Source: Candidatus Krumholzibacteriota bacterium (GTDB lineage: Bacteria; Krumholzibacteriota; Krumholzibacteriia; Krumholzibacteriales; Krumholzibacteriaceae). Taken from it: 8,803 nucleotides of DNA. How positions within the stretch are numbered: position 1 is the first letter of the stretch; the number at the start of each line of letters is the position of its first letter. Positions 7,579 through 8,803 of this stretch are shown here, piece by piece. Position numbers and translations under genes: made by a program. The stretch is from contig JAFGCX010000019.1 of NCBI GenBank assembly GCA_016932415.1, positions 1 to 8,803 on the forward strand, read 5' to 3'. The notes under the pieces are model-generated. The model worked only from the letters and a program-made list of their open reading frames with translations, was not told the origin of the DNA and did not search any database.

Positions 7579-7882
7579 GCCCCGAGAGAGGGTAAATTTA
7601 CGGCTCCCGTCAGGAAGTGCAAAATTCCATGCTGTTTAATGGTTTTGGAAGCATGATTGGACCTGATCTGCTACTAAAGCGTAAAATATTGTTGACATCT
7701 AATTCTGAAAATATCTGTTGAATTATCTGCCGCGTTTGTGATAGACTCCCTCGTTATCTCGCCGCACAAACCCATCTACCATACTCCAGAGATAAAAGAT
7801 CCTGAGTGGGTTATAATAAAAAAACAGTGTAGCCCTTTAACGAAATAAAATTGCGTGTTAGCAGTTTAGTAAATGCGGGATA
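7579..7882. other. AT-rich stretch without a firm gene
   Basis: About 300 bases between two divergent genes. It is clearly richer in A and T than the sequence to its left. It holds a 10-base palindrome (GTAAATTTAC, 7592-7601) and a 7-base inverted repeat (GTTTGTG 7734-7740 / CACAAAC 7765-7771). A 50-codon plus-strand frame (7696-7848) has no ATG and is not called as a gene. The part from 7772 onward matches the sequence downstream of the next gene in inverted orientation. Confidence 0.7.
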
Positions 7883-7898
7883 ACAGTAGTTAGATTCC
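7772..7898. repeat. Left arm of a long imperfect inverted repeat
   Basis: Reverse-complemented, this stretch matches 8649-8751 in three blocks in the same order: 7883-7898 with 8649-8664 (15 of 16), 7836-7854 with 8680-8698 (about 16 of 19, two single-base gaps), and 7772-7794 with 8730-8751 (about 18 of 22, one gap). Spacing between blocks differs by 20-40 bases. The innermost block ends 19 bases before the start codon of the enclosed gene. Block matches were made by eye. Confidence 0.6.
7812..7817 (+). promoter_or_regulatory. Possible -10 element for the isolated gene
   Basis: TATAAT, a perfect -10 consensus, lies about 100 bases before the start of the three-helix gene. No convincing -35 element is found 16-18 bases upstream, and no extended -10 TGn is present. 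It falls between two blocks of the left repeat arm, so expression may depend on the repeat. In such AT-rich DNA a chance match is possible. Confidence 0.3.
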
Positions 7899-7917
7899 AA
7901 ATGTGGAGTATTATGCA

Positions 7918-8649
7918 ATGAGTATGTTTTCCGGTGAAGAAATGAAGAGAATCGATAAACCTAGCGATGGCTTTCGAATCCTTCAAAGAAAACTTCGAAA
8001 GAAGAAAGAGTCGCCTTACGGAATATTAGATAATATTGAAAAATATATGAATTGGTTTATTCCCTTTGTCTCTTCTTTGTTTTTCGTGATTATAGGAATA
8101 TCTTACAAAGCTGAGGGCAGTACGATACTGTTAGGTGATATAGTTGCGTTGTTGGGTTTTATATTACTGTTTGCCGCACTGATCTTGGCTCTCTTATCAA
8201 GATTGTTCTTGTTTCATTTTAACAAATTGCGGAGTGATGCCGTAATAAAAATTGAATCATGGGCTATGACTTTCTTTAAAAAATATGAAATATTTATGAA
8301 AAAGCTAGAACGAGAGCAAGAAGTTGAGCCTGAAATACAAAAGGATCTCAGTGATGCGTTTGTGCGCGATACCGAGGAAGAAGTTGTAGAACTTTGGGAG
8401 TTGATGTCAATAGGATTGCTTGATGCAGCGGCGAGTGGATTGAAAGATAAGCTTCAAAAAGAAAATGATCCTGAAAAAGAAAAAGAAATTATTGAAAACG
8501 AGAAACTGAAGCAAGAAAGGAAATGGGGAATGAAGAAAGGGTGTGGCAGATGGGCCATACTATGCTTCTACTATTCAAATAGTTTATTTCTTGCCTCATT
8601 ACTAGCGTGGTTTGTTTTCTTTGTGAAGGAATTAGTGATTTGTAGATAG
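7918..8649 (+). CDS. Hypothetical membrane protein with three hydrophobic segments
   Basis: I do not recognise this 243-residue protein. The first 42 residues are basic and polar (R-K-L-R-K-K-K at 24-30), with no signal peptide. Hydrophobic helices lie at about 46-63 and 69-99. A long charged, probably coiled-coil segment follows at about 100-205, rich in K and E, and a third hydrophobic stretch lies at about 212-241. ATG 7918 is chosen because GGAG (7905-7908) lies nine bases before it; GTG 7903, five codons upstream, is the alternative and would overlap that site. Codon use is strongly AT-biased (AAA, GAA, ATT, TTA), unlike the genes at 176-7515, which suggests separate origin. It stands alone, divergent from the PgeF-type gene, between inverted repeats that nearly touch its start and stop. 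Signal transduction, toxin-like or defence roles are all possible and none is shown. Confidence 0.75.
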   Translation: MSMFSGEEMKRIDKPSDGFRILQRKLRKKKESPYGILDNIEKYMNWFIPFVSSLFFVIIGISYKAEGSTILLGDIVALLGFILLFAALILALLSRLFLFHFNKLRSDAVIKIESWAMTFFKKYEIFMKKLEREQEVEPEIQKDLSDAFVRDTEEEVVELWELMSIGLLDAAASGLKDKLQKENDPEKEKEIIENEKLKQERKWGMKKGCGRWAILCFYYSNSLFLASLLAWFVFFVKELVICR

Positions 8650-8751
8650 GAATCTAACTACCGTATCTGGACTCCTCTGGCAATAGTTATTTTGTAAATC
8701 TTTGGCGAACTGGGATCTGACTGCAGTCGTATCTCCGGCCTCTGGTAATGG
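8649..8751. repeat. Right arm of a long imperfect inverted repeat
   Basis: Counterpart of 7772-7898. It begins at the last base of the TAG stop codon with GGAATCTAACTACCGT. The arm also repeats itself directly: 8649-8686 resembles 8712-8751 (28 of about 38 aligned bases, with a 3-base and a 1-base gap). The second unit contains the 10-base palindrome GACTGCAGTC (8719-8728). The arm may continue past the compared part toward the window end. Confidence 0.6.
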
Positions 8752-8803
8752 AGAGCTAAAGTCTCCGGGCCAATATGGAACCCGCGCGCGAGGAGCCAAT
8801 CGC
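8650..8803. other. Sequence after the isolated gene, no firm gene
   Basis: The last 154 bases are less AT-rich than the gene before them. On the minus strand two frames stay open from the window edge: one to a TAG at 8660-8658 (47 codons) and one to a TAA at 8634-8632 (56 codons). Either could be the tail of a gene entering from the right, but the segment is too short to choose. No terminator with a U-tract was found after the isolated gene. Confidence 0.5.

Follow-up and report, generated by a model that had tools for sequence, protein, structure and literature searches.

An inverted repeat in a Krumholzibacteriota genome frames a gene that is almost certainly an integron cassette, its attC site apparently split by an IS1111-type element

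The window analyzed here, meaning the whole stretch of 8,803 nucleotides, is an entire contig (C19) of a Candidatus Krumholzibacteriota genome, and this contig stops inside an insertion sequence (IS). A laccase-like gene (PF02578) lies to the left of the array described below. The features to its right are:

7690..7805, + strand: leader beside the laccase gene, the final conserved piece of chromosome ahead of the array, with 70% identity to the sister species (G001) only
7883..7888, + strand: ACAGTA, outer portion of the left arm of the inverted repeat, placed by sequence to the left of the crossover point and outside the cassette
7889..7898, + strand: left arm proper, made up of R' (the GTTRRRY-type core site GTTAGAT, 7889-7895) and the three bases that follow
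7918..8649, + strand: ORF of the cassette, with 243 aa if started at ATG 7918 (GGAG at 7905-7908) and 248 aa if started at GTG 7903
8649..8663, + strand: right arm at the 3' edge of the cassette, with the inverse core R'' (ATCTAAC, 8652-8658, fits RYYYAAC) and the spacer TACCG
8664..8803, - strand: predicted IS1111-type element (IS110 family), right end plus non-coding stretch, assigned by homology to other copies

The cassette unit runs from 7890 to about 8663 and measures ~0.8 kb. Its ORF has a GC content of 36% and encodes hydrophobic segments close to both ends, so the protein is probably membrane-bound; searches with the ORF found no relatives. The leader contains a TTGACA box, which is promoter-like, and may be closed by a stem (TATCT.../...AGATA) that is longer in the sister species. 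It has no match in Rfam and could be a small RNA or an array promoter.

The arms of the inverted repeat, 7883-7898 and 8649-8664, are complementary at 15 of 16 positions with a perfect run of 13. The right arm begins at the final base of the stop codon TAG (8647-8649), and 19 bases separate the end of the left arm from the in-frame ATG at 7918. These values, and the framing of the gene on its start and stop codon sides, agree exactly with a preliminary description of the locus. That description also judged the repeat unlikely by chance, which holds only because the repeat frames a gene: a 13-base match was reached in only 1 of 1,500 shuffles of the 100-base flanks of the cassette gene. For 8.8 kb, the size of the repeat is ordinary. 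Perfect inverted matches of at least 13 bases are expected 0.74 times in the whole window and are present in 55% of dinucleotide shuffles; the expectation is 0.145 for matches within 1 kb and 0.013 inside 7600-8803. The 11-base core AATCTAACTAC has no second copy in the 3.1 Mb genome.

Integron attC sites are bounded by the inverse core RYYYAAC and the core GTTRRRY (PMC3053210). In the window, both motifs are in place where cassette ends belong: the 5' boundary carries GTTRRRY and the 3' end RYYYAAC, and the right arm forms the opening portion of the attC that belongs to this cassette. Integration of a circular cassette at G^TT puts the core half of its attC ahead of the gene and leaves the inverse core behind it. 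An inverted repeat framing one gene is therefore expected. From this known chemistry, the crossover would fall between 7889 and 7890. The cassette ends are complementary for 10 bases inward from the core and for 13 in total, three of these perfect bases lying past the core on the outer side, where the cassette model predicts no match. Overall, ACAGTA (7883-7888) pairs with the right arm at 5/6 positions. Framed cassettes elsewhere show 0-1 matching base beyond the core, and the match of these outer bases is probably accidental.

No intact attC was found in the window, and neither an attI nor an attC was recognised left of 7889. Folded singly, the flanks reach z-scores of -0.6 (right) and -1.5 (left) and show no attC. 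The left arm was also considered as the start of an inverted attC; this candidate was dropped, as the minus strand lacks a following L'' sequence.

Intact attCs of this lineage open with YCTAACTAnCG, followed by CTTGCAGC or similar, with a TTGCAGC-like L''. The window reads ATCTAACTACCG and then changes to IS sequence. By homology, the attC reads as broken at 8664/8665 by an attC-targeting IS1111-type (IS110 family) element, with the exact IS/target junction uncertain by 1-3 bases. Positions 8664-8803 match, at 73-90%, an IS end in G007, G015, G020, G021, L121 and others. The transposases of these homologues belong to the IS110 family (NF033542, 331 and 304 bits; PF01548/PF02371) and read towards the matched end. 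In full homologues, ~235-265 non-coding bases lie downstream of the transposase gene, between the end of the open frame and the matched IS end. The transposase of the window's copy would read on the minus strand, past the contig end; the body of this copy, transposase included, is absent from the assembled bin, and its IS110 assignment comes via the homologues. A subterminal repeat, TGGACTCCTCT, is found at 8668-8678, and TGGACTCCTCC on a second contig of the same genome (C30) matches it at 10/11 positions, giving subterminal inverted repeats of ~11 bp. Copies that are read through bear the corresponding repeats GGACTCCTCC/GGAGGAGTCC. The direction of the transposase, the downstream non-coding region and the subterminal repeats therefore indicate an IS1111 layout.

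Among eleven aligned IS ends, homology extends from TATCTGGACTCC on, and upstream of this point mainly the attC target is common; the junction after YYTAAC and spacer is identical in most of the eleven. The IS-end pattern CTAACTNNCGTATCTGG occurs in 7/80 genomes of the class (reversed control, 0) and is absent from viral contigs, and the tail of the window has no match to plasmids. An earlier candidate, that 8664-8803 is a long attC, was overturned by its homology to insertion sequences with transposases. The preliminary description reported no target-site duplication at the repeat edges, which is compatible both with cassette insertion and with an adjacent IS1111-type element.

The other side of the break lies on C30. 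This contig opens on the other end of an IS of this kind, and then continues with TTGCAGCAGACGG, the missing half of the attC (TTGCAGCAGACGGCTCC...GGCTGAACCGATGGATGCTAGACC). When the C19 and C30 halves are joined, they form 103 nt that read like the attCs of the lineage, with a weak fold and a degenerate R' (GCTAGAC). Eight relatives carry homologues of the genes at 8.6-16.8 kb of C30 next to their laccase gene, and the attC model finds no attC at that locus in these eight; the C30 genes include a cluster judged tol-like by eye. The laccase match lies 443 bases from that of the tol-side neighbour in G005 and 342 in G006. In several other relatives, the gap beside the laccase gene holds a threonine synthase-like gene (by eye). 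Because the homologues of the C30 genes adjoin the laccase gene in attC-free relatives, it is very probable that C19 and C30 lie on either side of a single array, split by the assembly at the repeated IS, and the two contigs would be physically joined there. The same IS within the attC accounts for the contig end at 8803. The framed gene is apparently the first cassette of this array.

Cassettes with attCs also follow the laccase gene of the sister species, and the first of these cassettes encodes a TIR-domain protein. The preliminary description would have doubted mobility if relatives carried the same gene in the same place without the repeats; the sister species has a different cassette there, with an equivalent repeat of its own. 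We note defence-like genes in the laccase-tol array region (L061:3125-4183, L061:5557-6234 and L172:4033-6213), among them a TIR-domain protein (PADLOC TIR-TM, 44 bits), a HEPN-like protein just under the Pfam cut-off and a SIR2-like protein recognised by eye. One attC of the sister species' laccase array (L061:4203-4324, on G001:C28) retains a short, ~30-40-base piece of the same IS end with no IS body, as if the element had been lost imperfectly and had left a scar. G024 and G020 contain comparable short pieces. A further reading, that the genus has in the laccase-tol gap a second site dedicated to cassette capture, with a conserved promoter-like leader of its own at 7690-7805 and an IntI acting in trans from elsewhere in the genome, seems improbable.

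The genome encodes an integron integrase, IntI, on contig C17 (455 bits for TIGR02249, whose cut-off is 265). Integrase matches on C25 and C1 are XerC/D-like and fall under the IntI cut-off, and there is no IntI match on C19 or C30. Close IntI matches (E of 1e-30 or better) were detected in 30 of the 58 genomes searched, counting the window's own. A covariance model of attC, trained on relatives and applied to the window's genome, places attC sites on C38 and C30. With no adjacent intI and no recognised attI, the array is therefore CALIN-like and not a complete integron. As for the IntI gene itself (G000:C17:94947-96074) and the loci of relatives, intI genes in the class often lie near a contig end with their 3' side towards the break, which suggests that arrays downstream of intI (inverse orientation) break the assemblies.

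The product of a minus-strand gene near the end of C38 (L170:3701-4477) is a subclass B2 metallo-beta-lactamase, with 360 bits for NF033087 (cut-off, 240). The gene lies between two attC sites and is apparently an integron cassette. To our knowledge, B2 metallo-beta-lactamases are unusual as cassettes. One novel B2 gene has been reported from hospital sewage, and the accessible part of that report mentions no cassette context for it (PMC6598227).

Cassettes of other genomes and control loci were compared for framing by repeats of at least 10 bases that start with GTTRRRY. Five cassettes have such repeats: two in L121 (15 and 14 bases) and one each in G007 (12), G001 (10) and G032 (10). None was found in 161 kb of control loci. 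One more framing repeat, of 9 bases, surrounds a cassette on the genome's own C38. The arms vary in sequence between cassettes and the core motif GTTRRRY/RYYYAAC is constant.

The core motifs, the matching framed cassettes, the IS homology, the presence of both kinds of IS end and the synteny of the locus can all be read in the sequences, and on these grounds 7890 to about 8663 is almost certainly an integron gene cassette with its attC split by an attC-targeting IS1111-type element. In its free, circular form, the two ends of the cassette would pair as R' and R'' within a single attC hairpin, and the circular junction would join the right end to TTAGATTCC. IntI, which we infer to be supplied from C17, would integrate the cassette at G^TT, so that the inserted gene starts with R' and ends with R''. 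Later, the IS1111-type element would have entered between R'' (with its spacer) and L'', probably crippling excision and hence mobility. The cassette is thus very probably mobile without being autonomous, its movement depending on an integron integrase that acts in trans.

The preliminary description suggested a mobile unit of about this size without its own transposase, which is retained; the repeats themselves are not transposon ends. A MITE-like or other transposon unit, with the arms as terminal inverted repeats and transposase coming from elsewhere, would explain one foreign-looking gene framed by an inverted repeat with no transposase inside. However, transposon ends would stay alike, and the arms of other cassettes differ while keeping the core motifs, which argues against it. 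Moreover, the repeat has no other copy in the genome, no loci there carry both arms around different DNA, and the sequence directly beyond the right arm belongs to an attC-targeting IS. We regard the transposon as very improbable. Lack of the repeat elsewhere had been proposed as evidence against mobility altogether; this does not apply to an integron cassette, whose repeat is cassette-specific, so that few further copies are expected.

A long-range transcript stem, formed by the arms for stability or regulation, was the other original proposal, and one arm does lie just before the start codon with the other at the stop codon. Yet the same positions are the usual ends of cassettes. Pairing of mRNA ends is unsupported and superfluous as an explanation; it is conceivable as a side effect, and scarcely credible as the origin of the repeat. 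Least probable of all is a chance match of two AT-rich flanks. The expectation for 8.8 kb would allow it, and the shuffled flanks speak against it, as do the attC core consensus in both arms at the predicted positions, which the IS and C30 support independently, and the framed cassettes of other genomes.

By these observations, the largely uncultured phylum Krumholzibacteriota, on which no integron report was found in the open-access literature, has both integron cassette arrays and attC-targeting insertion sequences of the IS1111 type. They also indicate that a cassette with a broken attC can still be recognised by an inverted repeat that frames the gene and has GTTRRRY/RYYYAAC at its ends.

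The locus resembles the cassettes of chromosomal integrons or CALIN arrays in having one ORF between GTTRRRY and RYYYAAC with complementary ends, in lying within an array, and in sharing its genome with IntI and further attC sites. It differs from an intact integron cassette in that the attC is split by an IS, no IntI is adjacent on the available contigs and attI is unrecognised. The IS resembles the IS1111-attC group, to which ISKpn4 and ISPst6 are assigned (Tetu and Holmes 2008 and Post and Hall 2009, as cited in PMC11187229). Compared with these two elements, only the two ends of the window's copy are assembled, on two contigs, and the likeness is one of features: an IS110/DEDD transposase (in homologues only), subterminal inverted repeats, a non-coding region downstream of the transposase, and insertion at one end of attC with no target duplication seen. 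Cassette and attC-targeting IS are thus both of known kinds, in a phylum that is little studied.
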